Assembly (NCBI RefSeq): GCF_003231275.1
Contig: NZ_QKVL01000013.1
Span: 1 to 64,000 of the forward strand
Reading direction: 5' to 3'
DNA: 64,000 nt
Source of the DNA: Pseudomonas huaxiensis
GTDB taxonomy: Bacteria > Pseudomonadota > Gammaproteobacteria > Pseudomonadales > Pseudomonadaceae
Shown: positions 30,569 to 48,321 of the stretch, in pieces
How positions within the stretch are numbered: position 1 is the stretch's first letter
How the letters are laid out: every line of letters starts with the position of its first letter
Position numbers and translations under genes: made by a program
Notes under the pieces: model-generated
The model's input: only the letters and a program-made list of their open reading frames with translations
Databases searched by the model: none
What the model was told of the DNA's origin: nothing

Positions 30569-30569
30569 G

Positions 30570-32402: not shown

Positions 32403-32577
32403 CCTCTCAATGTTTCTTCGAGATAGCGGGTATCAGCGCACGGCTGATCAGCCTCGAACTGCCTTGCAGGGGACCAGAACGCAGCTCCTTGTGCTATTGC
32501 ATTGCTATCATCAGCGGTAGCCCGTTCGATTTTCGCAAACGATGTCATCGCTTCGGCCCCGCTATTTGAGATGACTG

Positions 32578-32850
32578 GTGGAAGAGCTTACTGAAGAACA
32601 AATGCGCCGCGCCCTGTTTGGCGGTGTTGGCAGTACCGTGCCTGGTGCTCAGCCGGCGGCGAATGCGACAAAGGAACGGAAGACGATGAGATCTCGCCTC
32701 AGGGTCACCCTGCGTGTAGGTAACGAATACGAAGGGAAGCTGTTCGACTACGTGCATGACGCCGACGCGCTGAGCACCCGGCTGGCCGAGCAGGAGGCTA
32801 CGAAGGCCGCTCGGAAAAAATACCAATTCATCGAGCTCGGTTGGGGCTGA
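32578..32850 (+). CDS. Small conserved mobile-element protein, unknown function
   Basis: A 90-residue soluble protein starting at GTG (VEELTEEQMRRALFGG) with a basic centre (TKERKTMRSRLRVTLRVGNEY) and ending KKYQFIELGWG. The TMRSRLRVTLRV core resembles small proteins I recall from integrative conjugative elements of Pseudomonas, function unknown. A competing frame on the other strand (32545-32856) has no recognisable features. It stands between the TnsE-like gene and the lipoprotein gene. Real-gene status is supported by the charged, balanced composition. Confidence 0.5.
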   Translation: MEELTEEQMRRALFGGVGSTVPGAQPAANATKERKTMRSRLRVTLRVGNEYEGKLFDYVHDADALSTRLAEQEATKAARKKYQFIELGWG

Positions 32851-32993
32851 TGGCAAATCGCCGCTCCTCTTCTACACTCCGAATTCTGCGTAATGGTGCG
32901 CAGCAGTCCACCTCCGCAAGCTGATGACGACTCGGTCAAGTATGGCGGAGCCGCGCGATGTGATCTGTGAATGGATTCCACCGGAGAGTATCT

Positions 32994-34406
32994 ATGCGGG
33001 TAAAAAAGCTTGGGTTGAGTTGTGCGGTTGCCCTATCTCTTACCTCGTGCACTACCGAGCTTGTAACCAAGCCCCTGGGCACCGGCGATCCTCTCCCGAC
33101 AGGTAACCCCTACAGGATGCCCTTCACGCAATTTGACGTGACAGTCAAATGGCAAGCTGTGGCCTGTCAGATACCCGCAATAGGCAAAACGCCTCCTATC
33201 AAGGTGAACATCTCAGCTGAAGCTACTCCCAAGGTCGCGCTTGAGCCAAATCGCCTCTACCCGATAGATCCGAGGAGTCTTACCCGATGGATGAAGACGG
33301 GAGAGGTGGTATTTGAATGGCAGCAAAACCGTTTATTGAAGTCCGTCAACGCATCCGCCGATGACCAAGCCGGACAAGTGGCGGTGAACATCGCATCCGG
33401 TGTGGGAAAAATTGTCTCTGTTGCCTTTGCGGGGGCTGGGATCGACAAATGCGATACTCCCCTTGCTCTTGATATCGATGCTGTTGATACAGCCAAAGCG
33501 GGGCTGCTGGTGGCTACCCAAGACCTTGACGCAAGAATGGCAGTATTCGCGCGCGTGGACGCTGCAGTGAAGGCAGTTCCGGGGGGGCCGAGCAAGAAGC
33601 TTCAACAAGCATGGATAACCGCGCAAGGCCAGGTTGATGCTGCCGAGGCCGCTCTTCAGGCGCAGAAAAACTTGTATGAAAAAGCGCTACGGAAGGTCAC
33701 CTATTCGTATTCTGATACCTGGCCACATTCGGGTACAGAATTCGCCACCCCGGCCCCGATCGGGCTTCCCGATCCGGTTGTTAAAAAGTGGGGTTTAAAT
33801 AGACGTGAGAGCGGTTCATTGCAGGTCTACTTCGCCCTAGTTTCAAAGGAGGAATTTAAGCCTTCAAACCCGCAACCGCCTACGGAAGGCTGGAAAGGGC
33901 TGCCCTATAGAGAGCCTGCCTTGGCCGAATTCAAAATCTGCTCGGTCGCAAGCTGTAGCGATCCCAAATCGGAAGAGGTCACCAGTTTTGATGCAATGGT
34001 CTATCAACTGGGCCCGATGTTGCTTCTCCCATTCGAAGGCCGTGCATTCGCTTCCAACAAAGCATCTGCAAGCTTCGGGGAGGATGGCGCACTCCTGTCT
34101 GGCGGATATTCGCAACTGCGTTCTACGGCGGCTGGAGCGTCCGAGACCTTCAAATCCTTGAGCGATCAAGTCGCAGCAGTTCGGACGGCCAAGCAAGGGG
34201 AAGATCTTCAGGAGCTGGAGCAAAAAACCAAGCTCTACAAGGCTCGCAAGGATTTGGCTGATGCGATGAAGTCGAACAACCCTGCGTCCGACTCGGAGAC
34301 ACAGATTCAAGCTCTCGAAAATCAGACTGCGCTGCTTGAGGCTGAAACCAAACTGCTTGAAGCCAAGAAGCTGCGAGATCAGGCAGCGAGTGAGACATCG
34401 CTATGA
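32994..34406 (+). CDS. Putative lipoprotein with C-terminal coiled coil, partner of a papain-like protease
   Basis: A 470-residue secreted lipoprotein of unknown family. ATG 32994, with GGAGAG upstream, gives a lipoprotein signal (MRVKKLGLSCAVALSLTSC, lipobox LTSC). A beta-rich part follows, then two coiled-coil stretches (about 200-245, QGQVDAAEAALQAQKNLYEK; and 410-470, LEQKTKLYKARKDLADAMK). It overlaps the next gene by ATGAG, so the two are made together. The lipid anchor places it at a membrane facing the periplasm. No enzymatic motif was found. Confidence 0.72.
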   Translation: MRVKKLGLSCAVALSLTSCTTELVTKPLGTGDPLPTGNPYRMPFTQFDVTVKWQAVACQIPAIGKTPPIKVNISAEATPKVALEPNRLYPIDPRSLTRWMKTGEVVFEWQQNRLLKSVNASADDQAGQVAVNIASGVGKIVSVAFAGAGIDKCDTPLALDIDAVDTAKAGLLVATQDLDARMAVFARVDAAVKAVPGGPSKKLQQAWITAQGQVDAAEAALQAQKNLYEKALRKVTYSYSDTWPHSGTEFATPAPIGLPDPVVKKWGLNRRESGSLQVYFALVSKEEFKPSNPQPPTEGWKGLPYREPALAEFKICSVASCSDPKSEEVTSFDAMVYQLGPMLLLPFEGRAFASNKASASFGEDGALLSGGYSQLRSTAAGASETFKSLSDQVAAVRTAKQGEDLQELEQKTKLYKARKDLADAMKSNNPASDSETQIQALENQTALLEAETKLLEAKKLRDQAASETSL

Positions 34407-35203
34407 GCCCGAAGAACCCCATCACGGCAACCGGTCAGGTTGATCTGGCTGCTACAGTGGATAGCCCTTGGTTGACATACTCGGGGGAGATTCCCCCTTT
34501 CAATCCAGAGCCCCAGGTCTTTGAGAAAGTCGATCTGAGGCTACAGTCACGCTTTGAAATGGTGGTGTTCACCGAGGTCGCTGCTTTCCTGCCGTATGTT
34601 CCCGATCTCAGCAAACTGGCTCCCCCGAAAAACCAGGGGGAGAGCAAAGCGTGTACAAGTTATGCGATCGCATCTGCAATCGAGGATCGAATGCTGTTGG
34701 CTAACCCCTCAGCGGCCTTCCCAGTGTCTCCGCTGTTCGCTCATGTCTGTGTCGGGAGGCTGGATACGTCATCTCCCTGGGACCCCTACTTTGCGATGCA
34801 AGATTTAGGGGGCTCTTACCTAGTGCGAGAAACGGCAACGGATTCCACTGACTTCCCTGGGCAGTGCGCCCTTAGAAAGGGGCAGATCCGGTTAACGAAC
34901 ATACGGCCGATCGAGGGCGATCTTGAAGCTCGTCGAGCGGTACAGCAGGGGCCTGTGATAGCCGTGATGGAGCTGTGGGAGGATTTTCACTCTGCCAACT
35001 ATAAAGGCGAGCTCTACCGATCCAAAGGTGGGGCATTCGGTGGCTATCACACTGTCGAGGTTGTCGGCTTCGATGCTTCCGGATGGATCATCAAAAACAG
35101 CTTCGGCCCTAAATGGGGGAATCGTGGCTTTGGCAAGGTGGCCTACGGTGAGTGCCTACTCTTCCGTGATTCTGCTTATAGCTTTCAACCAGTACTCATT
35201 TGA
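34403..35203 (+). CDS. Papain-like (C1A fold) cysteine protease
   Basis: A 266-residue protein with the C1 peptidase catalytic layout: KNQGESKACTSYAIASAIED gives oxyanion Gln78 and nucleophile Cys84, GGYHTVEVVGFD gives His216, and WIIKNSFGPKWGNRGFGKVA gives Asn232. All four residues are present, so activity is likely. There is no signal peptide and no clear inhibitory propeptide, so it should act in the cytoplasm unless delivered otherwise. That is puzzling beside its lipoprotein partner, whose gene it overlaps by 4 bp. GC is lower than the chromosome. The substrate is unknown; a toxin or conflict role is inferred from the cargo context. Confidence 0.85.
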   Translation: MSPKNPITATGQVDLAATVDSPWLTYSGEIPPFNPEPQVFEKVDLRLQSRFEMVVFTEVAAFLPYVPDLSKLAPPKNQGESKACTSYAIASAIEDRMLLANPSAAFPVSPLFAHVCVGRLDTSSPWDPYFAMQDLGGSYLVRETATDSTDFPGQCALRKGQIRLTNIRPIEGDLEARRAVQQGPVIAVMELWEDFHSANYKGELYRSKGGAFGGYHTVEVVGFDASGWIIKNSFGPKWGNRGFGKVAYGECLLFRDSAYSFQPVLI

Positions 35204-35318
35204 ATGTCTCCCCATCTCTTAGGTCTGAGGTGAAGGGCTGAAACAGGAGAGCTAGGCGAGGCATGGACGGCTGGTGCTCATCAGTGCTTCACTCATGCTA
35301 TCAGAGGTACATTACCTG

Positions 35319-35747
35319 ATGGCGGTAGGAGTAGGCAGCATTATGGGCAGCGGGCGTTTCAACCAGGAGCAGTCGTCGGTAGGTTTGAAAGTGGCGCTGC
35401 GCATCATCGCCGGCTGGCAGGCCTCCCCGGCCCAAGCCTGCAGAATCCTGCGCATATCTCACTCTACATACCGTCGAGCTTCTCGAGACTGCGGTGCTGG
35501 CCGAAGGCTCGATCAAGATCAGCAACAGCGTATAGGCCTGGTACTCGGCATCCACGCATCGTTGCGGACCACGTTTGCCAATCATGCTAACGTCAAAGGA
35601 TTCCCTAGGTTCAGAAACGAGAATGACTTCTTCGGGGGGCGCTCTCCCTTGGAGATCATGGCGCAAGGCGACATGATCTCGCTCTATGAGACCTACAAGC
35701 GTATTGATCAGTTACCGCGGATCGGCGTGGTGCAGGGATCAAGCTAG
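35319..35747 (+). CDS. Xre/MbcA/ParS-family antitoxin (DUF2384), apparently without its RES toxin
   Basis: A 142-residue antitoxin-type DNA-binding protein. The N-terminal helical part (GLKVALRIIAGWQASPAQAC, RILRISHSTYRRASRD) is the Xre-like helix-turn-helix, and the C-terminal part (RIGLVLGIHASLRTTFANHA, FFGGRSPLEIMAQGDMISLY) is the MbcA/ParS toxin-binding domain. ATG 35319 follows AGAGG. Such genes normally precede a RES-domain NAD+-degrading toxin; none is visible in the following 220 bp or anywhere in the island. It may be an orphan or act on a toxin elsewhere. Confidence 0.85.
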   Translation: MAVGVGSIMGSGRFNQEQSSVGLKVALRIIAGWQASPAQACRILRISHSTYRRASRDCGAGRRLDQDQQQRIGLVLGIHASLRTTFANHANVKGFPRFRNENDFFGGRSPLEIMAQGDMISLYETYKRIDQLPRIGVVQGSS

Positions 35748-35968
35748 CGCTGCAGAGTCTCCATTTTCTGCGGTCCCCGCATCGGCGTAGGTACGACAGT
35801 CCTCTGAAATTCCACAGTTCAGCTCGCCCAGATCGTCGTTCATGGGGTATTTTTTGTCTCTCGGCACCGGTATCTATGGGTGGGCAAGGCGGTGTAACCG
35901 CTCCGGCTTGGTTGGCATTGGAATGAGTCCCTGTTCTGATCGCATTGATCTGGCGTTTTTACCGGTAA
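35748..35968. other. Spacer without recognisable gene after the antitoxin
   Basis: 221 bp between the antitoxin stop and the TcmP stop. Translated in all frames, it gives no RES-toxin segment (no conserved Arg/Tyr/Glu blocks) and no other familiar motif. An early deletion of the toxin is possible but leaves no readable trace. Confidence 0.5.
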
Positions 35969-37303
35969 TCACTCGTCTCCGAGCCCCGCCTTTCCTTTCT
36001 GGACCATTGAGATCGGAGGCAAGAAAAACATTGTCCGCTGCGCCGCCGGCATCAGGATATCTGAAGGCTTGATGCTGCTGCCCTTGCGGCGCTTGGTGCC
36101 ACTGTCCTTGTCGTAAACCTCGATGTCCTTGCACAGAATTGGCATGTGGAGGGCCTCGCGAACGATGCTTTCGTTGGCCATCGTGCCGTTGGCCATGCTC
36201 TTCATCATGTCCTCGAACGTCTGTACAGGCTCTTGGTAGATCTGTCTGGGCAGCAATTCGGAGAGTTCGGTCTCGATGCGTTTTCCGGTGACGCTATCGA
36301 AGAAGTGCTCTTCACCGAAACCGAGGTTTTGCTGATCGGTCACCTGTATATCGCGCTTGGTGTCGTAGCCCACGAACAGCGCGGGCGTCATTGCGTGCGA
36401 AAAGTGGTTGCCGTACTTCCAGTGGATTTCCTTCATCACGGCGTTGGCGCGATAGCTCTTGGCGAGATGAATGAACCAGTAGGTGCGAGGGTTAGCGCCA
36501 AACGGCGTTATGAAAAATACCGTCATGAAATCTGCGCCGCTTTCTTTCAGTATGCCCTCTGCCAGAAAGCGCTGAATGATGTGCTGCCATTCATGGGGCC
36601 TAGTGGCCTTGAAGGAACGGAGCTTTGCCCACGGAATGTATTTTTCAAGGTCGATGTTCTGGAGCGCCTTACGGTTTTCCTCGCGTTCGGAAAGATAGTC
36701 AATCAGGCTGTCAACGTTGAACGTCAGCAACACCTCAGCGTTTTTCACTTCCTGAAAGATGGTGCGGATGCTGGAGAAGGGAACATCTTTGTAAGCGTAT
36801 TGGTCCAACAAAAAAAGTGCGCGTTGCGAAAATTTTAACTTCTTGATCTGACTTATCAGCGTAGGGAGAGCATTTGTGAACCGTGACTTTATCGGAAACA
36901 CGTCCTTGTCAATTAAGTGCGAATATCCTTTCGCGTTAAGCACGGCGGTCAGGTAGTTGATGTTGTCCTTTTTGATGTCCACAAAGTAGTATTTAGCGAT
37001 TACTTCGCGGTTTTGCTTTCTCTGGATGTTGATTTCCGCGACCGTCTCACGCACAGTTTCCAATGCGATGATCGGCGATCCATAATGGACGCCAACACCA
37101 TCATCGTCCTTGTAAATACCCCCGCCGCAGAACCCATCGATGATGCTGATTCCGATTCGTGGAATCATCTGGTTGCTCATCACGACCGTTATGTAGGAGC
37201 GGATATAGTCTTGAATGATCTTGTGTTTGATCTTGCTATGAGGGTCAATCTGAGGATATGTCCGGGTGGAAATATTCCATTTATACTTTTCATCCTTGGC
37301 CAT
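35969..37303 (-). CDS. tcmP: Three-Cys-motif partner protein TcmP (first copy)
   Basis: A 444-residue member of the TcmP family, which is usually encoded beside a three-Cys (Gp37/Gp68-type) protein. Landmarks are HSKIKHKIIQDYIRSYITVV, ISIIDGFCGGGIYKD, YYFVDIKKDNINYLTAVL, LFLLDQYAYKDVPFSSI and THRPHEWQHIIQRFL-like text further on. The IDGFCGGG and FVDI segments recall a Rossmann methyltransferase SAM pocket, so a modified methyltransferase fold is possible. ATG 37303 has AAAGGA upstream and lies 17 bp after the three-Cys gene, giving an operon. The biochemical function is not established. Confidence 0.82.
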   Translation of the reverse strand: MAKDEKYKWNISTRTYPQIDPHSKIKHKIIQDYIRSYITVVMSNQMIPRIGISIIDGFCGGGIYKDDDGVGVHYGSPIIALETVRETVAEINIQRKQNREVIAKYYFVDIKKDNINYLTAVLNAKGYSHLIDKDVFPIKSRFTNALPTLISQIKKLKFSQRALFLLDQYAYKDVPFSSIRTIFQEVKNAEVLLTFNVDSLIDYLSEREENRKALQNIDLEKYIPWAKLRSFKATRPHEWQHIIQRFLAEGILKESGADFMTVFFITPFGANPRTYWFIHLAKSYRANAVMKEIHWKYGNHFSHAMTPALFVGYDTKRDIQVTDQQNLGFGEEHFFDSVTGKRIETELSELLPRQIYQEPVQTFEDMMKSMANGTMANESIVREALHMPILCKDIEVYDKDSGTKRRKGSSIKPSDILMPAAQRTMFFLPPISMVQKGKAGLGDE

Positions 37304-37320
37304 CCGGTAAATCCTTTAAC

Positions 37321-38064
37321 TCAGGCTAAATTCAACAGAGGTATCTCATCCCAGGTCTGGCCGTTCAGCAGCCGCCCGTTTGCTTTTTTAGAGCGCTTGA
37401 CGCCATCCGCACCCCAGCCGCCCCATTGCTTGAAGAAGAATGCGGAGCCGGAGATATCGCACTGGCGATGAATGTTGTCGACCCATTCCTGCTGCATGGG
37501 ACGCGCTTTCGCACCCGACTCACCTCCAACAATTACCCAGTGGATATCGGTCAAGTCTATTTCACCGAGGTCTTCCAGAAGGGGCTCCGCCGAGAGGAAG
37601 CGGATTGTTGCATTCACACGGCGCAAGCAGTCGATACGGGGAACGCCATAGGCCTTGTCTTCGACCGATACGCCAAGCCAGGCGTTGGTAGGTGGAACGC
37701 GCTTGCTGAAGTAGTCAGCCAACCGTTCTGCACGCTTGGTCAGGATTTGAAAGGTGTGTTGCGTTGCCTCACGAATGACGTCAAAAACTTGATCGATGTA
37801 ATGATCCGGGACTTTTTCGTGAAATAGATCCGACATGGAGTTTACAAAATAAATAGTCGGTTTCTTGCGCTGAAGTGGTTCGCGCAGTTTCTCCGGGCGC
37901 AGACTTAGCTTGAAACCATTCTCATAACCTGGAGTGCCCATGGCCTGCAGTCGGTGCGCCATGTTCTCGGCATAGCAATGCTTGCAGCCGGGCGATACCT
38001 TGGTGCACCCAACTATGGGGTTCCAAGTCATTTCGGTCCATTCTATGCTCGTCTGGGTACTCAT
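37321..38064 (-). CDS. Three-Cys-motif protein, phage Gp37/Gp68 family (DUF5131)
   Basis: A 247-residue protein. The defining motif WNPIVGCTKVSPGCKHCYAE gives Cys20, Cys27 and Cys30, a C-x6-C-x2-C arrangement reminiscent of a widened radical-SAM iron-sulfur site. Later conserved parts are YFVNSMSDLFHEKVPDHYID, FQILTKRAERL, WLGVSVED, RFLSAEPLLEDLG, WVIVGGESGAKARPM and FFFKQWGG. ATG 38064 with AGGAG upstream is chosen over an upstream ATG at 38097. It is flanked by two TcmP genes in the same direction, so it and its partners form a three-gene module. Iron-sulfur chemistry is inferred. Confidence 0.88.
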   Translation of the reverse strand: MSTQTSIEWTEMTWNPIVGCTKVSPGCKHCYAENMAHRLQAMGTPGYENGFKLSLRPEKLREPLQRKKPTIYFVNSMSDLFHEKVPDHYIDQVFDVIREATQHTFQILTKRAERLADYFSKRVPPTNAWLGVSVEDKAYGVPRIDCLRRVNATIRFLSAEPLLEDLGEIDLTDIHWVIVGGESGAKARPMQQEWVDNIHRQCDISGSAFFFKQWGGWGADGVKRSKKANGRLLNGQTWDEIPLLNLA

Positions 38065-38295
38065 TGCACTGTAACTCCTGTCGTGCACGATGCTCATGTA
38101 AACCGGGCGCGACTCAAATGACTATCACCTTGGTGTTTGGCATTTCTGTCCGTGGCCCTGCCAAGTTATAAGCATAACACATTTGCCCGATAATCCCAGT
38201 CAAATAAGAGTTGCTTAATATATTATTTGGCTAGTAGTTTCTTAGTGTATTCAAACTTTCTTCACGTTGGCTGGTTTTTGGGTTGTCGGTAGAAA

Positions 38296-39486
38296 CTAGC
38301 AAGTCTCTTTTGTCGAAAGTGATTCTGCGCAGAGCATCCAGCGTTCACTTTTTCTTGGCCAGTGAGGCTTTACTGGATTTTTTGTCCGCTTACGAACATC
38401 CGCATCCAGGTTTGTGATTTTCCCTTCTTTAGCCAGTTCTTTGAATGCGAGTTGCAGGTCCGTCGGATAGAGGTCTGATTCCTCAAGGAAGTTTGCCCAA
38501 CAATCGTTATCCAACAGCAATGGTGTGGCGGAGAGACGTGTCAGCAAATACTTTCTGGCGAGCATTCTGTTGTCCCGAACGTTGACTGGCTCGGGCTGAT
38601 CCTCAGGTGAGGAGAATAGGTCATTAACAGGAAGTCTTCTGCTCGATTGCTGTCGGAGCTTGGTCTCGAACTGACTGACACGCTGGACCATGTCCATTTG
38701 CTCGGCGGCATCCTTGAAGACGATGAGCCCCATGGGATGTCGCGTGAGGTAGATTAGGAAGTACAGGACGCGGTCCATGCCAGGCCGCTCAACGGTGACG
38801 TACGCAGTTCTGCCGTTGTACAGATCTCCCACCACCTGGCGGTACTGGGAAACAATGATGTTCTGCCGCTCGTGTGCCGACTCTTTGCCCGTAAACGTGA
38901 TTGGCTTACCAAGCAGCTCTTCAACGTTCGATTGCTGGGCTGTCATCGACATCGCTCGGTTGAGGAAGTCGTACATCAGGTTGATGAGAAACTCGGCTTT
39001 GTTCAACGCCAACAGCGGCGCCAGTATCGGCGCGTTGATGACCTTTCGCCAGCCCTTGGGATCAATGAAGAAAAAGGTGAACCCAAGTTTGGCCCAGTTT
39101 GCGATCTCGTCGATTTTTGTCGTGTAGTCGCCGTGGATGCAGCTGGCGTCTACGCCACTGTCCGTATTGTGGGAAAGAAAGCTCTGAAGCTTCGCAAAAG
39201 CGTCGTCGTTTTTCTCGATATACAGGGCGCGGAATTTCACCTTTGCGCCATGCCGCTCTTCAAGCGATTTCGCGCAATCCTTCATAAGGCTCAACGAGAT
39301 GCCAATTGAGGTGTCGCGCAAGTCATCAGACTCTTCCGACCAGGGACCGGCGAAGCAGTCAACGTAGTTGATCACCTTCTCACTGCGGCCAATGATCATG
39401 AACAGCCGCTGCAAGTAAGTTCTCAGAATGGCGTGCTTTACGTACGCCTGTTCTCTACCCTGATATTCCATTGGTATAAAAGACAT
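38296..39486 (-). CDS. Second TcmP-like partner protein
   Basis: A 396-residue relative of TcmP, not a simple duplicate of the copy at 35969. Shared landmarks are YVKHAILRTYLQRLFMIIGR, INYVDCFAGPWSE, FRALYIEKNDDAF, FTFFFIDPKGW and LINLMYDFLNRAM. VDCFAGPW matches the IDGFCGGG position and FIDPKGW the LLDQYAY position. ATG 39486 has AAGGAAG upstream, so the longer frame from 39507 is rejected. It is transcribed toward the three-Cys gene across a 231-bp gap, which leaves room for an internal promoter. Upstream lies a decayed IS. Confidence 0.75.
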   Translation of the reverse strand: MSFIPMEYQGREQAYVKHAILRTYLQRLFMIIGRSEKVINYVDCFAGPWSEESDDLRDTSIGISLSLMKDCAKSLEERHGAKVKFRALYIEKNDDAFAKLQSFLSHNTDSGVDASCIHGDYTTKIDEIANWAKLGFTFFFIDPKGWRKVINAPILAPLLALNKAEFLINLMYDFLNRAMSMTAQQSNVEELLGKPITFTGKESAHERQNIIVSQYRQVVGDLYNGRTAYVTVERPGMDRVLYFLIYLTRHPMGLIVFKDAAEQMDMVQRVSQFETKLRQQSSRRLPVNDLFSSPEDQPEPVNVRDNRMLARKYLLTRLSATPLLLDNDCWANFLEESDLYPTDLQLAFKELAKEGKITNLDADVRKRTKNPVKPHWPRKSERWMLCAESLSTKETC

Positions 39487-39579
39487 ATTACTTCCTTGTT
39501 GACCCATCTCTGACGCGTTTGGCTGCTCGGCTAATCGTGTTGAGCATGTCGTAGTGGCAATACGGTATCTTAGCGAGGG

Positions 39580-40116
39580 TCAGGTTGCTATGGCTGAATC
39601 CTGCACCGCAGTGGGAGGACAGTCGAGGTCGTTGGACTGGTCGTCCGTTGCCCGAGGGGCACAACCGCAAGCGTGGCACTGCAGACTACAAGCGGCGAGT
39701 GCAGGGCAGAGCGCGTGGTCCGCCGGTTCTTCCGCCCCCCTTTTTTGACCTGCTCCAGAGGCCGCCCGGGTTGCTTTGACCGACTGCCGTTGGGTCAATA
39801 CACCAGGTATCCAGATCGATTAGCCCATGCTCGTTGAGTTTGCATCCGCGTGAGCATCTTGGTGAATGTGCCCTGATTTCGCCAATCTCGAAACCGCTGT
39901 AAACCGTAGACCAAGGTCCGTATCGCTCAGGCATGTCCCGCCAGGCTGCGCCCGAGCAAGGCACCCAGAAACGCCATTGAGCATCAATCGATCATCAGCG
40001 CGCGGACGTCCCGTGCGGCGGGGCGAATTGCGAAGGTCCGAAACCAACTCCCAGTCCGCATCGGAAATTTCATATCGCCGCTTGGCCGTCACAGAGTCCT
40101 GCGTGAAAAAGGGCAA
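39580..40116 (-). pseudogene. Frameshifted, truncated IS5-family transposase remnant
   Basis: Reading leftward from 40116, three frames in turn give an IS5-family (DUF4096-type) transposase N-terminus: RYEISDADWELVSDLR and RPRADDRLMLNGV, then GAAWRDMPERYGPWSTVY, then GLIDLDTWCIDPTAV and ATRAASGAGQKRGAEEPADH. At least three frameshifts occur and the DDE catalytic part is missing past about 39600. No complete terminal inverted repeats were found. The remnant separates the TcmP module from the next cargo module and marks an old insertion or recombination scar. Confidence 0.85.
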
Positions 40117-40276
40117 GGCTCTACGAAAACTCAGGCTGGCTGGGGCATTGGCGGGATTTCAAGGGGCTTCCTACAGAGCCTAGCAGGCATTCTCAGGGGC
40201 ACGATGAGAGAAACGATGGCTAGTCGCCAGCAAAGTCGGTATGTTACATATTTATTTTTTATATTCAGGAATAAAA

Positions 40277-40597
40277 ATGAACTCAGTGATCGGTAGATTG
40301 CTTACCGGGGTATGTGGTGGACTTGTGATGGCTGCAGTTAACCATTGGAACACCCTAACCGGATGGGCGTACGCAGGCTCTATAGCAGCTGCTTTCATAG
40401 CTTTTTTTCTAGGAGCTGTCCTGCTTGAGCATAGAGCGGCGAAGAAGCCAGCGGCAGCAAAGCAGGGAATTGGCTCTTTCAACGAAGCCGAAGGTGACCA
40501 AGAGATAGAGATCGAGAGAACAAAAGAACTTTCTTCAAATGTAAATATTGGGAGCTCTAACAAGTCCGGCGGTAACCAAAAAATTAAGATTGGGTAG
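40277..40597 (+). CDS. Small two-helix membrane protein with tandem amyloid-like repeats
   Basis: A 106-residue protein. ATG 40277 follows CAGGAA. Residues 5-52 form two hydrophobic helices (VIGRLLTGVCGGLVMAAV and AYAGSIAAAFIAFFLGAVLL). After a basic linker, the tail holds a tandem 15-residue repeat: IGSFNEAEGDQEIEI (65-79) and IGSSNKSGGNQKIKI (91-105). A third copy of this motif lies in the protein encoded 4 bp downstream. The pattern (alternating hydrophobics with G, N and Q) resembles RHIM/PP/BASS amyloid signalling motifs. The inferred role is a membrane-active effector. GC is far below the core genome. Confidence 0.65.
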   Translation: MNSVIGRLLTGVCGGLVMAAVNHWNTLTGWAYAGSIAAAFIAFFLGAVLLEHRAAKKPAAAKQGIGSFNEAEGDQEIEIERTKELSSNVNIGSSNKSGGNQKIKIG

Positions 40598-40601
40598 AAA
40601 A

Positions 40602-41447
40602 ATGCGACAGTTCAGGGGGCGTCACATTGACTGGAGGCGTCAGTTCGTCGTTTTCAAAGAGTATTTGGATGGCGATGGTGGTGTTGTAAACGTACGCTAT
40701 AATGGATCACGTTGTGGCGCCAACGCCTTTCTAGAGATATTGACAGCTACGTTCGAGTCTCGAGGCGATGAAGTTGATATCGAAAAGCCTGTCGGAACAT
40801 CGATTCGGCTCGATCCTCGGAACTATAAAGTTAGATATCTTTCTGGTATTCGTGGCGAGTTTGATAGGAAGTTAGGGCGAACACCTACGCAATCTTCCTC
40901 CCCCGTAGCTTTGCCAGGAAATGCTCAGATTCTTTCGCAGAATACCGCAGGTGGTAACCAGACTATTGAGGCTAATATAAATATCGATGTTGCACCGATG
41001 ATGTGTGCGGAGTCTCACGATTGGGTCGCATCTTTATCAGCGTCCTTGAGCGATTATCTAAGTACAAGTCGATTTATGCTCGTTTTGGTCGCCGGAACCT
41101 CGGAAGAACAGCAGGATTTTTGGGCCACCTTATGGCCTCAGCTATCATGGTTAACATCCAAAGGATTGTTGCTTGTTAGATTGCTTGACGAGTCAAGCAA
41201 TGATTATGCAAAAAACCTAGACGAGTGTGCTGCAGACTCTGAAGTAATATTGCAATCCTCTTTGGATGAAAGCTCTGCTGAGCATGCGATAGATGATATA
41301 GCTAATATGATTAAAGAGATTCTTCCGGGTCAGGATAGTGTCCGTGGTAATGATCAGGCTTTGGGGTATGTGTATGGGCATGTGAACGATGTTAGTGCGC
41401 TTCATAATGACCTTATTTCATTCATTACTTTAATGCAAGGTCGCTAA
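40602..41447 (+). CDS. 281-aa protein sharing the amyloid-like motif, unknown family
   Basis: An unrecognised 281-residue soluble protein. The N-terminal part (about 1-92, IDWRRQFVVFKEYL, VVNVRYNGSRCGANAFLEIL) is mixed alpha/beta. A linker carries ILSQNTAGGNQTI (110-122), the same motif as the preceding small membrane protein. The C-terminal part (DYLSTSRFMLVLVAGTSEEQ, WATLWPQLSWL, MIKEILPG) looks like a Rossmann-type domain without a readable Walker A. Spacing is 4 bp upstream and 4 bp downstream, so it belongs to one operon with the membrane and TPR genes. It could be an adaptor or an inactive-STAND-like module; this is inference. Confidence 0.6.
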   Translation: MRQFRGRHIDWRRQFVVFKEYLDGDGGVVNVRYNGSRCGANAFLEILTATFESRGDEVDIEKPVGTSIRLDPRNYKVRYLSGIRGEFDRKLGRTPTQSSSPVALPGNAQILSQNTAGGNQTIEANINIDVAPMMCAESHDWVASLSASLSDYLSTSRFMLVLVAGTSEEQQDFWATLWPQLSWLTSKGLLLVRLLDESSNDYAKNLDECAADSEVILQSSLDESSAEHAIDDIANMIKEILPGQDSVRGNDQALGYVYGHVNDVSALHNDLISFITLMQGR

Positions 41448-41451
41448 TATC

Positions 41452-43404
41452 ATGCAACGTTATTCTGATTTAAAGAAGGATATGCCTGTAAAAGTGCTTC
41501 GTGCTGTAGAGGCGCTGAGCGTGCTTGAGAGCCTCACTGATCATGTAGCAAAGCTAATCCTTGAGAGGCGAGGAATCTCAGGTCTTGAAGCGGAAAGATT
41601 TCTGCAGTTGTTGCATTGTGCGGATTACGTTATTCCTCGAAACAATGAGTGGTGTTTTTCGGATGACATGAGAAGTGCAATTCTAAAAAATGCTAGGGAT
41701 CAATCTAGAGCGCAAGCAGACATTCATCGTTTTTTACTTGGTATTAGCAAAAAGGGGAGTTATCAGTCGGAGGCTGATCTGATACCGAGTTATCTTTTTA
41801 CGCATGCAGGCATGGCGTATCATAGTGGCGCATTGGGATGGTCAAAAAAAGCCTTGAGGGAGTATGCTAAAGCTGCAGGTGCCACCGATAACGGTGAACT
41901 TTGGCTTGCTAGTGCACTTTCGCGAGAGCAACAAGAGGCTGGCATTCTTCCGGTTGGGGCCATTGAGCCTGTATTCTTGCGTGCTCTATCTGCATATCGC
42001 GGTCACGACTATGCACAAGCGTATCCAGACTTAGTTAAAGTATCTTCCTGTAGTCAGCGTAATGTTTTAGTTGCGTGGGCGTCACAACTTGCGGGGGTTA
42101 TAGAGACGGTTTGGGATGATCTGGTGCTAGCGTTGCAGCATCTTAATAAAGCGGTTGCTCTTTTTGAGTTGCTTGGTGAGCGTGTAAAGCTAATTTGGTG
42201 TCTGAATTCCCGTTCTATGACACTGCACCGGACTGGAAACCTACCAGGTGCTCTCTCCGATCTTCAGCGAGCGGTTTTGATGTGTGATGGGGATTGGAAA
42301 GCCAGCCTGCTCACGCGAATGGCTTTGATTGAACGCGAATTAAAAAATTCTGATAAAGCATTGGCTTATCTTCGTGAGGCGGAATCAATAGCGGACCGTG
42401 AGCTGGGTACCGTTCTCATTCAGAAAGCTGCTTTGATGCGAGAGATTGGTGAGTCATATGAGGCGCTAAAAGCTATTGATCGTGCCGTTCAAGTGTCCTC
42501 TTTTGGGCAGTTGGCTATGGCGCTAAATACAAGAGCTGCTGTGCACTTGGATCTTGGTGACTATAAAGGTGCTGCGGATGATCTTGACTTAGCATGCGAA
42601 TATTCGAATCCGACAGACCGTGCGATTATTTACTTTACACGTGCCCGTGTGCATTATGGATTGGGCAATTTGGTTGCAGCCCTTTCAGATGCTAATAAAA
42701 TTTTAGAAATGCCGCCGCAGTTTTGCTCAGCTATAGATTTAGAGAAGGTAGATAAGTTTGTATGCAAAATAAAAAATACTTTGGCGCGCCTGGAAAAAGC
42801 TGAAACGGACCCGGCAAGGAAAACTTTCTGGTATAAATTCTTCATGAATTTAGCGTTGAGTTGTAAGCCAAAAAAGTATTGGCTTCAAGGCGTGACGCTG
42901 GCTCTTTCTGCACTAGAGTATGCTCAAAAAGATAAAGAGTTGCTCAAGTGTTACAAATTCATAGGGTTGAGCTACGAAAAAGCAGGGCGCCCTGAATTGG
43001 CATTGGAGCCATTGAGTCGAGCTCTAGAATTTTCTCCTAAAGATTCTTGGATTTTGGCGACGTTGGCACATGTTATGGATGTGCTTGATATGGATTTTGA
43101 GGTGACTCAAAAGTATTTTTTAGAGTCCATCATGGAGGATCCATCTAATCGGTGGGCTAAAAGCTGGTACGGTCTGGCACTCTCTCGTGCGGGTATGCAC
43201 AAAATAGCGATAGAGTTTGCTGAGCAAGCCACGCGCGAGTCGAGTAATCCAATTCTTATGTACAATCTATCAGTGGTGTTGTATGCGTCATCTGACCCGG
43301 AAGATCGTACGAGGGCGCTTGATGTCGCTGGGCTTGCCAATGAACTGTCCGGTTCTAATTTTGACGAGCCAGCTAAATTTTTGGAGAAAATTAGGGGGCG
43401 TTGA
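41452..43404 (+). CDS. Winged-helix/TPR-repeat protein of a putative conflict system
   Basis: A 650-residue protein. Residues 1-85 (AERFLQLLHCADYVIPRNNE, WCFSDDMRSAILKNARDQ) look like the winged-helix unit that follows the NTPase in STAND proteins. From about 100 onward there are many TPR-like helical hairpins (LALQHLNKAVALFELLGERV, NSDKALAYLREAESIADREL, GDYKGAADDLDLACEYS, GRPELALEPLSRALEFSPKD). No NTPase motif is present, so it resembles the sensor half of a STAND protein. It starts 4 bp after the previous gene and is AT-rich like it. A ligand-sensing role is inferred. Confidence 0.65.
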   Translation: MQRYSDLKKDMPVKVLRAVEALSVLESLTDHVAKLILERRGISGLEAERFLQLLHCADYVIPRNNEWCFSDDMRSAILKNARDQSRAQADIHRFLLGISKKGSYQSEADLIPSYLFTHAGMAYHSGALGWSKKALREYAKAAGATDNGELWLASALSREQQEAGILPVGAIEPVFLRALSAYRGHDYAQAYPDLVKVSSCSQRNVLVAWASQLAGVIETVWDDLVLALQHLNKAVALFELLGERVKLIWCLNSRSMTLHRTGNLPGALSDLQRAVLMCDGDWKASLLTRMALIERELKNSDKALAYLREAESIADRELGTVLIQKAALMREIGESYEALKAIDRAVQVSSFGQLAMALNTRAAVHLDLGDYKGAADDLDLACEYSNPTDRAIIYFTRARVHYGLGNLVAALSDANKILEMPPQFCSAIDLEKVDKFVCKIKNTLARLEKAETDPARKTFWYKFFMNLALSCKPKKYWLQGVTLALSALEYAQKDKELLKCYKFIGLSYEKAGRPELALEPLSRALEFSPKDSWILATLAHVMDVLDMDFEVTQKYFLESIMEDPSNRWAKSWYGLALSRAGMHKIAIEFAEQATRESSNPILMYNLSVVLYASSDPEDRTRALDVAGLANELSGSNFDEPAKFLEKIRGR

Positions 43405-43990
43405 GGTTTATACGCAACTCCGTGATTATGGAGAAATACCTTTATTATCGGGCTTGTCACATAATACTAGCGCGACTCTGCAGTGCCAGAATTAATGTTC
43501 AGTGTCAAGTAGTGGCAGAGTCTAGTAGAAGTTTTGCTACATAGGCTCTGTATAAAACCTCTGAAATCCCGCTCACACCCCACACCTTTTAGCGTTCTGG
43601 TCTTTTTAGCGCAGAACTCTCCCATGCCCAGCCGCCTGCGAAATTTGCCACGCCGGCTGGGAGTGGATCTCTTCAACGCGCGTCGCAGCACGAGCAGCTC
43701 ACTAACCGATGAGCGAGTGATTCTCAGCGACGTTTTGTGGTTGGTTCGCTCCGCCGCCTGATGCGTACATCACTTGAGGAGTGGATTTCGGTCTCCCAGC
43801 ATGATCTCAACGAGGTGGAGTCGAAGGCGCAGCGTGGGCTGAAGGTTCAGTTCATGGTCGTATCGTCAGACCTGCCCAGTGCGTGGAGTGCCCAGTCGTC
43901 CAGAGCTATGGCAATCTGCTACATGGAAGGCTATAAGCGTTGTCAGTTCCCTAGCCTGACATTACGACAATAATCATATGGAGATGAGCT
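43405..43990 (+). other. 586-bp spacer with two overlapping small ORFs of doubtful reality
   Basis: Between the TPR gene and the hydrolase gene. GC rises sharply at about 43,620, marking a module boundary. Two coupled short frames exist: 43624-43761 (45 codons, MPSRLRNLPRRLGVDLFNAR) and 43761-43973 (70 codons, MRTSLEEWISVSQHDLNEVE), joined by TGATG. They resemble nothing I know and have no strong ribosome site. They may be relics or an upstream part of the hydrolase–caspase operon. No clear terminator hairpin follows the TPR gene. Confidence 0.35.
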
Positions 43991-45163
43991 ATGCCCCTCG
44001 TGTTCGTCCACGGCGTAAACAACCGCGATGGCGGTGCCTATCGAGAGAATGAAATTGGTCGTAATGGTTTGCTGCGCGAGATCGTCGCTCCTTCCCTAGG
44101 GCTGAAGCCGGACGCCATCCAAATTTTCAGCCCCTACTGGGGTAAGTACGGCGGTCAGTTCGCATGGCAAATGGCCGTGCTGCCTAACCCCGATGACAAG
44201 TTCGAGTCATTCGGAGCCGTATCAAGTGACACCCTGGAGGGGGCGGCGCAGGGCCGAGTCGCAGGTTTGGTTGCAGAGTCCCCAGAGATCACCGGTAACA
44301 TCGTCGCTGATGCCCAAGGCAACTTATCGGCGGTCGTCGATATACTATATGCGGCCGCAGTCGCTGGTGTTACAAGCGACGAGGATGCGCGCAAGCTAGC
44401 TTGTGCCTACGTGTTGAGCGCCGAGTACGCCGCGGTTAACCCTCTGCCCGACTGGGTAGGCACCGCGAGCGAAAGTAACTTCGTGGACCAACTGGAGTAC
44501 GCTACTCAAACCAGTGAGCAAGAGACTTTTGGCCGTGGCGGCATCGTCGATTTGCTCAAAGAGGGGCTGTCACGGCTGGCAAATGCAGGACCAGACGCCC
44601 TCGCAGGCTCCGCCGGGCGTCTTATGCGAAAGAAGCTTAACGCTACAGTTACTCGGTTCGCTGGTGATGCCTTCACCTACCTGGCGCATCGCGGATCAAC
44701 GCAGGTTCCAGGCCCTATCGTAGCCACGGTTTTAGAAGATCTTCGTAAGGCAGATGCTGCGCGCTCGGCTCAAGACAACAAGCTGATCGTAATAGCCCAC
44801 AGCTTCGGCGGAGAAATCATCTATGACATCCTCACCCATTTCGACCCTAATATCGAAGTAGACTGCTTGATTACCGTCGGTTCGCAGGTGGGGCTGTTCG
44901 AGGAAATGAAGTTATACATGGCAAGTGCCGAGAACCTCCCGCCCGACCCACCCAATGGGCGTCTGGCTCGCCCCACCAATATCAAACGTTGGTTGAACGT
45001 TTTCGATACCAACGATGTGCTTAGCTACCAATTGGAACCTGTCATGACCGGTGTCGCAGACTTCCACTATGACACGGGCTACAGCTCCTTCGGCGCGCAT
45101 GGCGGCTACTTCCTTCGTCCAAGTTTCTATAAGCGTTTAGCTAAGCGACTAGCCCAAGGGTAA
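43991..45163 (+). CDS. Alpha/beta-hydrolase of a hydrolase–caspase operon
   Basis: A 390-residue lipase/esterase-like hydrolase. The N-terminus MPLVFVHGVNNRD supplies the oxyanion strand, the nucleophile elbow is VIAHSFGG (Ser271), and the acid and base are probably Asp339 or Asp342 (NVFDTNDVLSY) and His370 (SSFGAHGGYF). A large helical insertion (about 60-235) separates strand one from the elbow and may form a lid or regulatory region. ATG 43991 has GGAGATGA upstream. It is followed after 7 bp by the caspase gene. It may act on membrane lipids or protein acyl groups; the substrate is inferred only from fold. Confidence 0.82.
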   Translation: MPLVFVHGVNNRDGGAYRENEIGRNGLLREIVAPSLGLKPDAIQIFSPYWGKYGGQFAWQMAVLPNPDDKFESFGAVSSDTLEGAAQGRVAGLVAESPEITGNIVADAQGNLSAVVDILYAAAVAGVTSDEDARKLACAYVLSAEYAAVNPLPDWVGTASESNFVDQLEYATQTSEQETFGRGGIVDLLKEGLSRLANAGPDALAGSAGRLMRKKLNATVTRFAGDAFTYLAHRGSTQVPGPIVATVLEDLRKADAARSAQDNKLIVIAHSFGGEIIYDILTHFDPNIEVDCLITVGSQVGLFEEMKLYMASAENLPPDPPNGRLARPTNIKRWLNVFDTNDVLSYQLEPVMTGVADFHYDTGYSSFGAHGGYFLRPSFYKRLAKRLAQG

Positions 45164-45170
45164 AGCCGGC

Positions 45171-46358
45171 ATGACACTACTGTACGACGCCGCAATTGCC
45201 GGCCAGCCGGGCACCCACGTCCTCGCGATCGGCGTAGGCCGTTATCCGTATCTGCTTGGCGGTGATGGCACATTGGCGGATGAGCCCTTGGGACTCCAGC
45301 AACTGGAGTCGCCGCCTGTTTCACTCAAGGCTTTACTTGAATGGTTTCTCCCGCCAGGTGCGCCTCCAGGTACAACGGGGCTGCAAAACTCTAGGGTCCC
45401 GCTTGCATCCATCGAGGCTTTGGCTTCAGCCCCCCAGCCGGTGAAAGTCAATCTGTGTCAGGGGCCCGTGGCATTGGCGCCGGCTACGCGTGAGAATATT
45501 CAGCAAGCATTCGAGTCTTGGATTAAGCGACTTCAGGGAAACCCTGAAAACATCGGCGTTTTTTATTTCTGCGGCCACGGTCTTACTGCTGCCGACCATT
45601 ACTTGTTGGCGGAAGATTTTGGTAAGAGCAGCGCTTTGCCCTGGAGTGAGGCTTTCGATATCTCCACCACAATTCGAGCCATAGAGCGTGTGGTGCCAGG
45701 AGCGGTCTACTACTTCATTGATGCCTGCCGTGAAATATCGCGCGAAATAGCTATGACGCTAGGCGCTGATCCGACAGCTTTGTATGCATTGAACCTGAAG
45801 AAGAAGGTCATCCGTCGCTCGGTCACCGCCGTCTTCGCCACCGGTGAAGGCGCATTCGCGTATGCACCCAAGGGTGGCTCTGTCTCGCGTTTCACTACCG
45901 CACTTATCTACGCCTTGTCGGGCTATTGCGGCGTTAAAACGCCCGGGGCCGCCACCTGGAATGTGGACGGGGAAAGCATCGCAACCGCAATCCGACAGCT
46001 GCTGGAATATGAAGCCCTGAACTGCCCTGCTTCAGCTAGCGAAAGTAATCAGGTGAGTGAGCAGATGGTGCTAGGCAGCTCTGTCCCGCTGCTGCGCATT
46101 GCCGTTGTGCCCAAAGTTAAGGTTTGGCTCGACCTGAGCCCCAGGCAGAGCCGTGCCTTGTACGAGCGCTACCTTGTGTCGTCCAAGGGGGATCGTATCG
46201 CAGAAAAAGGTTTGGACGATGTGTACAAGGTCGAGGTGCCGCGGGGGTTCTATGAAGTCGGCGCGCTCGATCCGGAGGGCCGCTTGCCCGCCATTGTGCA
46301 CCTTGATGAAGAACTGGTTCCCCCAATCTACCCTCTCACTTTGCAGTCAATCCCATGA
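45171..46358 (+). CDS. Caspase-like cysteine protease (C14/metacaspase fold)
   Basis: A 395-residue caspase-family protein. HVLAIGVGRYPYL is the first core strand, NIGVFYFCGHGLTAADHYLL gives catalytic His136 and VYYFIDACREISR gives catalytic Cys186, the standard His/Cys dyad. The strand SVTAVFATGEGAFAYAP and SRFTTALIYALSG follow. The last about 90 residues form a separate beta-rich domain (AVVPKVKVWLDLSPRQSRAL, VYKVEVPRGFYEVGALDPEG). It is cytoplasmic. Its gene starts 7 bp after the hydrolase gene and overlaps the next one by 4 bp, so the three proteins are co-produced. Role in regulated cell death is inferred from family. Confidence 0.87.
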   Translation: MTLLYDAAIAGQPGTHVLAIGVGRYPYLLGGDGTLADEPLGLQQLESPPVSLKALLEWFLPPGAPPGTTGLQNSRVPLASIEALASAPQPVKVNLCQGPVALAPATRENIQQAFESWIKRLQGNPENIGVFYFCGHGLTAADHYLLAEDFGKSSALPWSEAFDISTTIRAIERVVPGAVYYFIDACREISREIAMTLGADPTALYALNLKKKVIRRSVTAVFATGEGAFAYAPKGGSVSRFTTALIYALSGYCGVKTPGAATWNVDGESIATAIRQLLEYEALNCPASASESNQVSEQMVLGSSVPLLRIAVVPKVKVWLDLSPRQSRALYERYLVSSKGDRIAEKGLDDVYKVEVPRGFYEVGALDPEGRLPAIVHLDEELVPPIYPLTLQSIP

Positions 46359-47812
46359 GCAAGCTGACCGTTCATCTCGATTACACGTCTGCCAGCGCGG
46401 GCCGAGACTATCAGCCTAACGAGAATCTGGCATTGCCTGTTAAAGCACTGGATGGTCAAGGCGCCATCCTTGCCGAGGGCGCTGCCCGCCTTGGCGAGCC
46501 GGCCTTGCTGTGTCTACCGGCAGGTACTTCCCAAGCATTTGTGCGTCTAACTTGGCCGTCTGGGCGTACCGAAACTCAGCGTGTTCTTTTGGGCAACAAG
46601 TCTGTTGCTGAATGGACCTTCAGCGACGACAGCATTTCGCAGGCTGTATGGTCTGCTTGGGCGATCCCTCGGCTTGGTGTGCGCACACCTCTAGCCACTG
46701 CACATGATGATCTGGATCTCGATTTGGATCGCTTCCAGAGGGTCTGGCTCCGCCTATGGCGTAATGATAACGGGACTTGGAGCCAAGTGCCGCTGCGTCC
46801 AGACGAGACTTACCGCAACGGCGCAGCATGGCAAATTGATTTGACGCTCGATAGCGCTGCTTGGCTGCTACACGTGGGCGGCTCCAATGTACCATGGCGC
46901 TTTGTCTCCCTTCCTGGGGGCGGCCGTGCACGCGTGCTCTTGACCCCCAAGGACACCCGCGACACCCGCGGTGACTCACTTACAGTCGTTGTGACTAGCT
47001 TCCGTCCCGCTGCCGAAACTTTGCTCGAATTTCTCGCTCGAGATTCAATGCGTGCTGCGGACACGCTTGTGCATTCGGCACATTATTTGTTCGCGGAGAA
47101 GTTTGAAGATCCTGTTTCTGCAGTAGCTGGTGCTTACTACCTTTTGCGGCGAGGTGATTGGCAGCAGATTCCGCTGGAATGGTTCCGGAACTTGTCGCGC
47201 TATTTCGGCTGGATGCCCGACACTCATTTGTTGTACTGCGTGCGCTTATTGCGCGAAGGTGCCGCCGTTACTCCCGCTAAAGAGGAGCCTATTCAACTCT
47301 TAGTCGCTTCACTCACTCAAGGATGGCCAGTCTACAAAGAAGGAATTGCCCTCCTGCAAGAGGCGGCAATTGTTCTGCGTGCAGAATTCGGCTCCCTGCA
47401 CGATGAGATATTTGAGCAGATACAAGCCATCGCAAGCGCCAGATCCTGGACGGGCGCAGCCACTAGCTTCCATGGTAGACAGCCTGAGATGCCCAGTACC
47501 GTACTGTGGGTGGGTATGCCTCACGCACCGCGACGCCGAAAGCTCTCTCCTGTGGTGAAAGCCGCTTTGCCTAAGCACGAACCAAAGGAACATTTCTGGT
47601 TAGATGTGGCCGACCAAATTCCTCACTTTGAGCCAGAATCCTACATTGTCAGGGAAATAGTAAGGCTGGAACCTCGACCGCAGAGGTTGCGCAGCGACGG
47701 AGGCAAGATGTCTCCCCCCCGCGCCGTCAAGACATCCTCTGGCGCGCCCCAAAAAGCCAAGCTTCCTCAGCTCCATGAGAATGAATTCCTGCTTGGCAAG
47801 ATTCCGAGCTGA
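46355..47812 (+). CDS. Third protein of the hydrolase–caspase operon, unknown function
   Basis: A 485-residue protein with no family I recognise. Residues 1-95 form an Ig-like/beta region (KLTVHLDYTSASAGRDY, PAGTSQAFVRLTWPSGRTET), followed by a second beta region with many tryptophans (VWLRLWRNDNGTWSQVPLRP, WLLHVGGSNVPWRFVSLPGG). A helical part (230-370) has repeat-like pairs (ADTLVHSAHYLFAEKFEDPV, SAVAGAYYLLRRGDWQQIPL) and the tail is basic and proline-rich. No membrane segment or signal. ATGA overlap with the caspase gene shows coupling. It could be the sensor, scaffold or caspase substrate of the module. Confidence 0.72.
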   Translation: MSKLTVHLDYTSASAGRDYQPNENLALPVKALDGQGAILAEGAARLGEPALLCLPAGTSQAFVRLTWPSGRTETQRVLLGNKSVAEWTFSDDSISQAVWSAWAIPRLGVRTPLATAHDDLDLDLDRFQRVWLRLWRNDNGTWSQVPLRPDETYRNGAAWQIDLTLDSAAWLLHVGGSNVPWRFVSLPGGGRARVLLTPKDTRDTRGDSLTVVVTSFRPAAETLLEFLARDSMRAADTLVHSAHYLFAEKFEDPVSAVAGAYYLLRRGDWQQIPLEWFRNLSRYFGWMPDTHLLYCVRLLREGAAVTPAKEEPIQLLVASLTQGWPVYKEGIALLQEAAIVLRAEFGSLHDEIFEQIQAIASARSWTGAATSFHGRQPEMPSTVLWVGMPHAPRRRKLSPVVKAALPKHEPKEHFWLDVADQIPHFEPESYIVREIVRLEPRPQRLRSDGGKMSPPRAVKTSSGAPQKAKLPQLHENEFLLGKIPS

Positions 47813-47887
47813 GCGGCTTTCAAAGTGCCATATAGACGATTGAATAGGGTTAGCGAAAACATAAGCTCAGCACCGGTTTTTACGACG

Positions 47888-47926
47888 CATGGGGCAACCC
47901 GAAATCTGAAACGCGGTTGCCCCATG
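47888..47926. terminator. Perfect 12-bp inverted repeat after the caspase operon
   Basis: CATGGGGCAACC (47888-47899) and its exact complement (47915-47926) are separated by 15 bp. It lies 75 bp after the last stop codon and may form an mRNA-end hairpin; there is no T-run, so it could also be a protein-binding palindrome. Confidence 0.5.
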
Positions 47927-47986
47927 GATCCCTAGGGTGTCTGTCTAACCTGGCGAGAGACGGCAGCCTCTTATCCGGATTCACCG

Positions 47987-48088
47987 TTAGCGAGGCGGCT
48001 GAATGAGGGCGACGTAGGTGCAGAGAAGGGTGATGAGGATGCTCGTGATGGTGATTGTGTTGGCGTAACTGGAGAGGAATGCTTCCAT
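47987..48088 (-). CDS. 33-residue hydrophobic micropeptide near the transposon right end
   Basis: A 34-codon frame reading MEAFLSSYANTITITSILIT then LLCTYVALIQPPR-stop. Nineteen consecutive apolar or hydroxyl residues form one likely membrane helix, with a charged or polar residue only at the termini. It runs opposite to the caspase operon and toward the island interior. The ribosome site is weak. Size and profile resemble small membrane toxins of type I systems or small regulatory membrane peptides; a counter-RNA was not identified. It is too short for standard gene callers. Confidence 0.4.
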   Translation of the reverse strand: MEAFLSSYANTITITSILITLLCTYVALIQPPR

Positions 48089-48276
48089 GTTGGTTTTTCG
48101 GTAAGGGCACCTTGAAGATTGCCTAGGTTAAAAAACCTTTTCAAGCTCACGATGAGGCCTGGGCTAGAACATTACCGGCCCGAAAGCAGACGCTTTGAAG
48201 CGCGGGTTTGAAGCTTCGGATGAGCGACCTGATATTCCGAACCCCTAGCTATGAGGCGTTCAGAGCGAGTGAGTCA

Positions 48277-48321
48277 GTCGCATCAATTTCGAAAAATTCG
48301 CATTTATTTCGAAAACCTACA
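48277..48321. repeat. Right transposon end with two TnsB-type repeats
   Basis: The right terminus (48297-48321) is the inverted partner of the left one. Two back-to-back motif copies, TCGCATTTATTTCGA at 48299-48313 and TCGCATCAATTTCGA at 48278-48292, lie 21 bp apart; a weak third may begin near 48224. Fewer and tighter sites at this side contrast with four spread sites on the left, giving the element asymmetric ends. Confidence 0.88.

Follow-up and report, generated by a model that had tools for sequence, protein, structure and literature searches.

A three-gene operon at positions 43991-47812 of a 64,000 nt stretch of Pseudomonas huaxiensis DNA (assembly GCF_003231275.1, contig NZ_QKVL01000013.1, positions 1 to 64,000 of the forward strand, here called the window) encodes a lipase-like alpha/beta-hydrolase (HYD), a caspase-family protease (CASP) and a third protein with Ig-like and TPR-like parts (UNK). 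From sequence comparisons we propose, with a probability of about 0.6, that the trio works as a caspase-triggered operon for abortive infection or cell death, in which CASP-UNK would cut HYD, a predicted pro-lipase, at two matching sites. All three genes lie on the plus strand, with open reading frames (ORFs) of 390 aa for HYD (43991..45163), 395 aa for the Peptidase_C14 protein CASP (45171..46358) and 485 aa for UNK (46355..47812), the position of which corresponds to that of CanB in the Canu defence system described below. HYD and CASP are separated by 7 nt, CASP and UNK overlap by 4 nt, and these ORFs agree exactly with the three overlapping or nearly abutting genes reported in an earlier sequence-only reading of the window. 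Promoter-like and terminator-like sites were no more frequent than in shuffled sequence.

HYD matches alpha/beta-hydrolase families of Pfam below threshold only. Its structure model, with a mean predicted local distance difference test (pLDDT) score of 76.7 and values below 50 at residues 59-78, 175-182 and 201-211, resembles LipA (Z 14.9, root-mean-square deviation (rmsd) 2.7, 165 aligned), Nir2 DDHD (Z 14.3, rmsd 4.5, 224 aligned) and lysosomal phospholipase A2 (Z 13.8, rmsd 3.6, 181 aligned), and the best Foldseek match had an E-value of 2.4e-3 at a probability of 1.00. The model combines a lipase fold with a Ser-Asp-His set and an HG oxyanion motif. The nucleophile Ser271 (HSFGG, codon 44801..44803, plus strand), already pointed out in the sequence-only reading, is kept in 29/29 aligned HYD sequences, as are His370 and Asp342, and Asp339 is kept in 28/29. 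The alignment leaves out L067 (loci are cited by number), in which HYD is split in two frames, and the duplicates L012, L013 and L014, which repeat L024, L026 and L025, respectively. Together these features suggest that HYD has lipase activity. Between the HG motif and Ser271 lie 264 residues, which include both predicted cut sites, and the mostly helical segment 76-181 of the model could plausibly serve as a lid. CASP matches Pfam Peptidase_C14 above the gathering score (E 2.3e-8) and PADLOC 'caspase' (E 1.6e-10). Its His136/Cys186 dyad (codons 45576..45578 and 45726..45728, plus strand), described as intact in the sequence-only reading, is present in 34/34 aligned caspases.

The predicted caspase sites of HYD share a tetrapeptide, glutamate-any residue-hydrophobic residue-glycine (E-x-Phi-G): ESFG at residues 72-75 in the low-confidence loop 59-78 (44204..44215, plus strand) and ETFG at residues 178-181 in the low-confidence loop 175-182 (44522..44533, plus strand). 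Gly75 is kept in 27/29 and Gly181 in 28/29 of the aligned proteins, and the two loops co-vary. Among 15 HYD representatives of clusters at 55% identity, the 5-mer similarity of the two loops within a protein was 17.4, compared with 13.0 (standard deviation 0.88) for permuted pairs, with 0 of 20,000 permutations as high; partly other representatives gave a z of 5.0. The loops of this test had been chosen after the motif had been seen. When 120 pairs of windows were compared on a blind grid, the pair that ranked first, 70-91 with 162-183 (z 4.7), took in the loops, and the next reached 2.3. With the register fixed and only P4-P2 compared, without the glycine, p was 0.00025 (14 HYD representatives). 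The two loops, which make up 1318 of 11461 residues, hold 33 of the 48 occurrences of E-x-[FLMYIV]-G in the 29 proteins. In other members a different motif is alike at both loops, namely VALG/VALG (L025, L027), ASFG/ASFG (L068) and ETLG/ESLG (L028), and L069 has LLGMGAA/LIGMGAA, alike but in another register. Both sites are absent from the sole HYD without a trace of a caspase (L071), and the motif was found in none of the 13 weakly related hydrolases tested out of 17 weak HYD matches.

Linkage of the three genes is strong. An UNK-seeded scan of genome contigs returned HYD-CASP-UNK in this order in 14/14 loci, the records of which are named Pseudomonas, Acidovorax, Rubrivivax, Tahibacter, Lysobacteraceae, Variovorax, Paucibacter, Ramlibacter, Alcaligenaceae, 'bacterium' and Chthonomonas, and four rhizobial plasmids carry the trio as well (L006, L007, L008, L011). 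A HYD-seeded plasmid search matched 20 records, 13 of them covered to at least 80%, with a caspase directly downstream in 11/13; the other two are L064, where it is decayed, and L071, which has none. Besides the window, a caspase lies downstream on the same strand in 27/29 HYD loci, a count that is no independent test because UNK had led to 18 of the 29 in the first place. The clustering of HYD with a caspase is not due to chance, and the genes, which might according to the sequence-only reading have turned out scattered in other genomes, are not. The pieces of the L064 caspase are 72% and 69% identical to the L026 caspase. Pairwise distances of HYD, CASP and UNK correlate at r 0.95-0.97 over 15 loci, a value that common descent alone could give. 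The third genes of L067, L070, L072 and L073 match the UNK profile weakly (E 1.7e-5 to 7e-4), and L010 holds an UNK relative alone. UNK is rare, with 5/398 genomes of the family and 4/398 of the phylum sample, the window's genome being included in both counts; that genome (7.26 Mb, 241 contigs) has one match each to UNK and CASP at E 0.001. No relative turned up when viral contigs were scanned with HYD, and the UNK relative of L015 had no match in phage records, where the window's own UNK and CASP were not among the queries. In L020 (10296-14044) the trio is directly followed downstream by another caspase-UNK pair, a divergent one, ahead of which a 373-aa protein matches M78 peptidase weakly.

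Searches of Pfam (E up to 1) and of PADLOC and NCBIfam (E up to 0.1) gave no match to UNK, in line with its earlier description as a beta/helical protein of unknown family. Its model (mean pLDDT 75.8) has an Ig/transthyretin-like domain at residues 1-99. Another beta region (about 130-214) and TPR-like helices (about 218-361) follow, and the tail is of low confidence. The best structural matches of the N-terminal sandwich (Z 8.7, rmsd 2.6, 86 aligned) and of the helices (Z 8.1, rmsd 5.2, 132 aligned) may reflect a common arrangement only; Foldseek gave no match to the model at E 0.001 and a profile search of PDB sequences none either. The TPR-like helical region, residues 217-361 (47003..47437, plus strand), is the most widely shared part, and in L066, L069 and L074 a single protein joins an N-terminal caspase to the TPR part of UNK at its C-terminus. 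Given this fusion, and the presence of E-x-Phi-G in only 5/16 UNK proteins and at non-equivalent places, UNK is more likely the partner of the caspase than its substrate. Of the roles of sensor, scaffold or substrate that had been suggested for it, that of substrate is therefore the less likely, with HYD as the likely substrate instead. In the window (at 47777-47812), and in L016, L017 and L018, UNK ends with FLLG or FLIG and a few residues, possibly a docking or pseudosubstrate peptide.

The closest known relative of this arrangement is Canu (caspase-nuclease, canABC), a phage defence system published in 2025 and followed here from excerpts of PMC12799240. According to these, the gene order is CanA caspase, CanB, CanC; CanB co-purifies with CanA; CanC is a putative pro-nuclease with two gating insertions that hold conserved glycines; and KaeCanABC protects against T4, mutation at either predicted cut site ablating defence. 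The trio resembles Canu in a caspase followed by a probable partner protein, in loci with Ig-like and TPR domains, and perhaps in an effector with two conserved-glycine insertions. The intact His/Cys dyad of CASP is a CanA trait, UNK lies directly downstream of the caspase as CanB does, and the paired motif around Gly75 and Gly181 is the sequence analogue of the two insertion sites. For the C-terminal Ig-like domain of the Canu caspase, a profile search of PDB sequences with CASP returned nothing at E 0.01. The difference lies in the effector, which in the trio is a lipase-like hydrolase encoded first, upstream of the caspase, in place of an MBL nuclease; an MBL protein, as which CanC is classed, had no match among 17 scanned genes of the island that carries the trio.

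Loci with the order caspase, UNK relative, MBL protein, in which the genes are laid out as in Canu, exist in Pseudomonas (L015, where HYD has no match) and on plasmids (L036-L041). The UNK profile aligns with a profile of eight middle proteins of such caspase-X-MBL loci at an hhalign probability of 99.8% (E 2.7e-28, 301 columns); the eighth comes from the UNK-like gene next to the second L020 caspase, at which no MBL was seen. By sequence, UNK and the middle proteins of the caspase-X-MBL loci are homologues; the homology concerns these genes and not KaeCanB itself, and KaeCanABC was not located in the plasmid record searches. The MBL proteins carry the same kind of paired motif. Among nine in loci of the caspase/UNK families, seven with a caspase in view (L015, L036-L041) and two with only an UNK-family gene seen (L032, L042), the strict motif occurs in the first loop of 6/9, the second loop of 7/9 and both loops of 4/9 (L015, L036, L038, L040). 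Four MBL relatives without a CASP or UNK match in the neighbours tested, L063 and L076 (beside ABC-three-component genes), L075, and L077 (beside MoxR), had it in 0/4 at either loop. The MBL of L075 (2398-6029) has DRLG at both loops and adjoins an 861-aa unknown protein, with which it may form one more pair that has a motif of its own. Genes annotated as patatin, DUF2235 and alpha/beta-hydrolase (L036:2097-3134, L038:1933-2979 and L037:2075-2944) adjoin caspase-X-MBL loci, some of which may hold both a lipase and a nuclease.

The trio thus looks like a Canu-type core with a lipase replacing the nuclease. CASP and UNK would form a sensor-protease pair, like CanA-CanB. A trigger, probably phage infection, would set off CASP, which would cut inactive HYD after Gly75 and after Gly181. 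The double cut would remove or open the segment at about 76-181 between the oxyanion motif and Ser271, and the freed lipase would attack membrane lipids, so that the cell stops, whether killed or arrested. The effector would be a swappable module, since Canu-type loci pair the same core with an MBL protein that bears the same kind of two-site motif. A wider rule is about an even bet on the sequences compared: a bacterial caspase with Gly-P1 specificity (E-x-hydrophobic-G) would activate unrelated pro-enzymes by two cuts, with the lipase, the MBL nuclease and perhaps the metallopeptidase of L009 having acquired the site pair independently, and the motif would be the plug by which effectors are swapped on a fixed caspase-UNK core. 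In L009 (5751-13337, Bradyrhizobium plasmid) a metallopeptidase stands in first position, its catalytic domain flanked by EAFG ahead and DAMG behind, and next come a caspase and an UNK fused to trypsin and PLD domains; the metallopeptidase is possibly another pro-effector, but two such motifs may well be chance.

Several observations weigh against cleavage at paired sites. The strict motif occurs in loop 1 of only 14/29 HYD and in loop 2 of 19/29; L066, L070 and L074 have it in neither loop despite their caspases, and these three and L073 show loose motifs. The two loops differ within L006-L008, L023, L024, L072 and L073, for example LALG/ETFG in L006 and L007, KLTG/QTMG in L023 and MALG/ESLG in L072, and in several single HYD proteins loop 1 has equally good matches in windows other than loop 2. 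Gly75 and Gly181 could instead be structural. The tetrapeptide also occurs somewhere in 17/34 caspases and in the 5/16 UNK proteins, and therefore is no mark of a cut site by itself. As EDFG it lies near His136 in 8/8 caspases of the window's clade and in that of L041; auto-processing of CASP was considered for this place, which is not called a cut site. The contrasts in motif among MBL and HYD proteins rest on few, partly related sequences, and it is gene order and family that tie the trio to Canu.

Motifs that are paired and co-vary suggest one binder for both, not cutting as such, and the HYD loops might accordingly be docking sites for CASP or UNK that are bound uncut, with control by assembly of a three-protein complex. 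We consider this unlikely: the same motif is found in most loops of the MBL proteins of caspase-X-MBL loci, loss of either predicted proteolysis site ablates Canu defence according to the excerpts of PMC12799240, and both HYD loops are of low confidence in the model. The catalytic residues are kept in both enzymes, which would also suit a constitutive or upstream HYD, an esterase or signal producer, with UNK as sensor and CASP as a killer that degrades cellular proteins. Caspase-like proteases do act in Thoeris and other systems cited in the excerpts of PMC12799240; a killer CASP would nevertheless leave the dual motif, its co-variation and the exchange of HYD and MBL beside the same core unexplained, and we regard it as improbable.

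Least probable, and to us rather remote, is that the operon stabilises mobile elements or serves their competition instead of phage defence. This would fit the Tn7-like element in the window and the relatives on plasmids of rhizobia, Deinococcus and others, and is opposed by the defence genes near some loci: GajA-type genes in L016 and L011, an RT-Protease gene that starts about 340 nt after UNK in L025, and a Ppl/AriA-like ATPase in L008. S8 peptidase and ATPase genes, as annotated, adjoin L038, L067 and L072. Among flanking ORFs of at least 180 aa (131 in 17 loci), 118 were scanned together, leaving out eight of L029, three of L007 and one each of L018 and L022. Singly scanned were 30 hand-picked flanking proteins, of which 8 match PADLOC at 1e-10, some of them generically (helicase, TnsB, GlgB), and 22 had no match. 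These defence genes are named examples and not an enrichment. Defence by caspase-cut HYD is the reading we retain.

Among other known systems, those with VMAP come near in one respect: according to excerpts of Kaur et al. 2020 (PMC7159879), their caspase genes are without exception accompanied by a gene for an alpha/beta-hydrolase. In the trio, the third protein is Ig/TPR-like. MoxR AAA+ and vWA genes adjoin the VMAP gene in VMAP ternary systems, and membership was dropped after no MoxR or vWA Pfam match was found among the 17 island genes scanned. The pairs of a protease and the pro-nuclease that it activates in Hachiman (HamMAB) and AVAST recall the proposed mechanism, since two inserted loops of the effector are cut to open it, but they combine a trypsin-like protease, an MBL nuclease and isoleucine at the cut sites (excerpts of PMC12799240). 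CARD-NLR/gasdermin systems share the protease-linked cell killing proposed here, and some variants have phospholipase effectors (excerpts of PMC13236601); unlike in these, no NLR ATPase or gasdermin has a Pfam match in the trio. TIR or gasdermin, as in Thoeris and gasdermin systems, had no Pfam match when the trio was scanned with six genes upstream of it, a scan that remote forms could escape. In a search of open-access PMC papers, so far as their text was available, neither the trio nor a bacterial lipase activated by a caspase was found described, which agrees with the earlier statement that no named system with this exact trio was known to its author. Of the new cell-death module that had been proposed, the conserved linked trio, two apparently active enzymes and the setting in mobile DNA, in some loci close to defence genes, stand; its status as an isolated new kind does not, CASP-UNK being also the core of loci with Canu layout.

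A Tn7-like transposon bears the trio at the end of its cargo. The element is placed at 24450..48321 by its matching ends TGTAGG...CCTACA and the 5-bp duplication ACCAC at 24445-24449 and 48322-48326. TnsA, TnsB-like (Mu-transposase C), TniB/TnsC and TniQ genes occupy its left end (24541..29136, plus strand), and UNK is the last of the 17 scanned island genes before the other end. Two pieces of a Mg-chelatase family gene, which we take to be comM, flank the element, which is inserted in that gene; in a Lysobacteraceae metagenome-assembled genome (L019:5945-7456) an uninterrupted comM-like ORF of 503 aa is found some 1.7 kb beyond the downstream end of the trio. The element of the window also carries a papain-like peptidase gene (34403-35203), and its TcmP/DUF5131 genes (35969-39507) match the PADLOC candidates PDC-M30/M41. 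Just upstream of the trio, a low-GC cluster (40241-43404) encodes three proteins, one of 118 aa, an unknown of 299 aa and a TPR protein of 650 aa; it was dropped as part of the system, having no match in the other loci compared.

If the proposed mechanism is true, the operon would add a caspase-activated lipase arm matching the caspase-activated nuclease of Canu, and would give bacteria a gasdermin-free counterpart of the lytic cell death that caspases drive. It also predicts exactly where the cuts would fall, its motif could serve to search genomes for more pro-effectors, and the pairing of caspase and hydrolase noted in 2020 would gain a testable mechanism.

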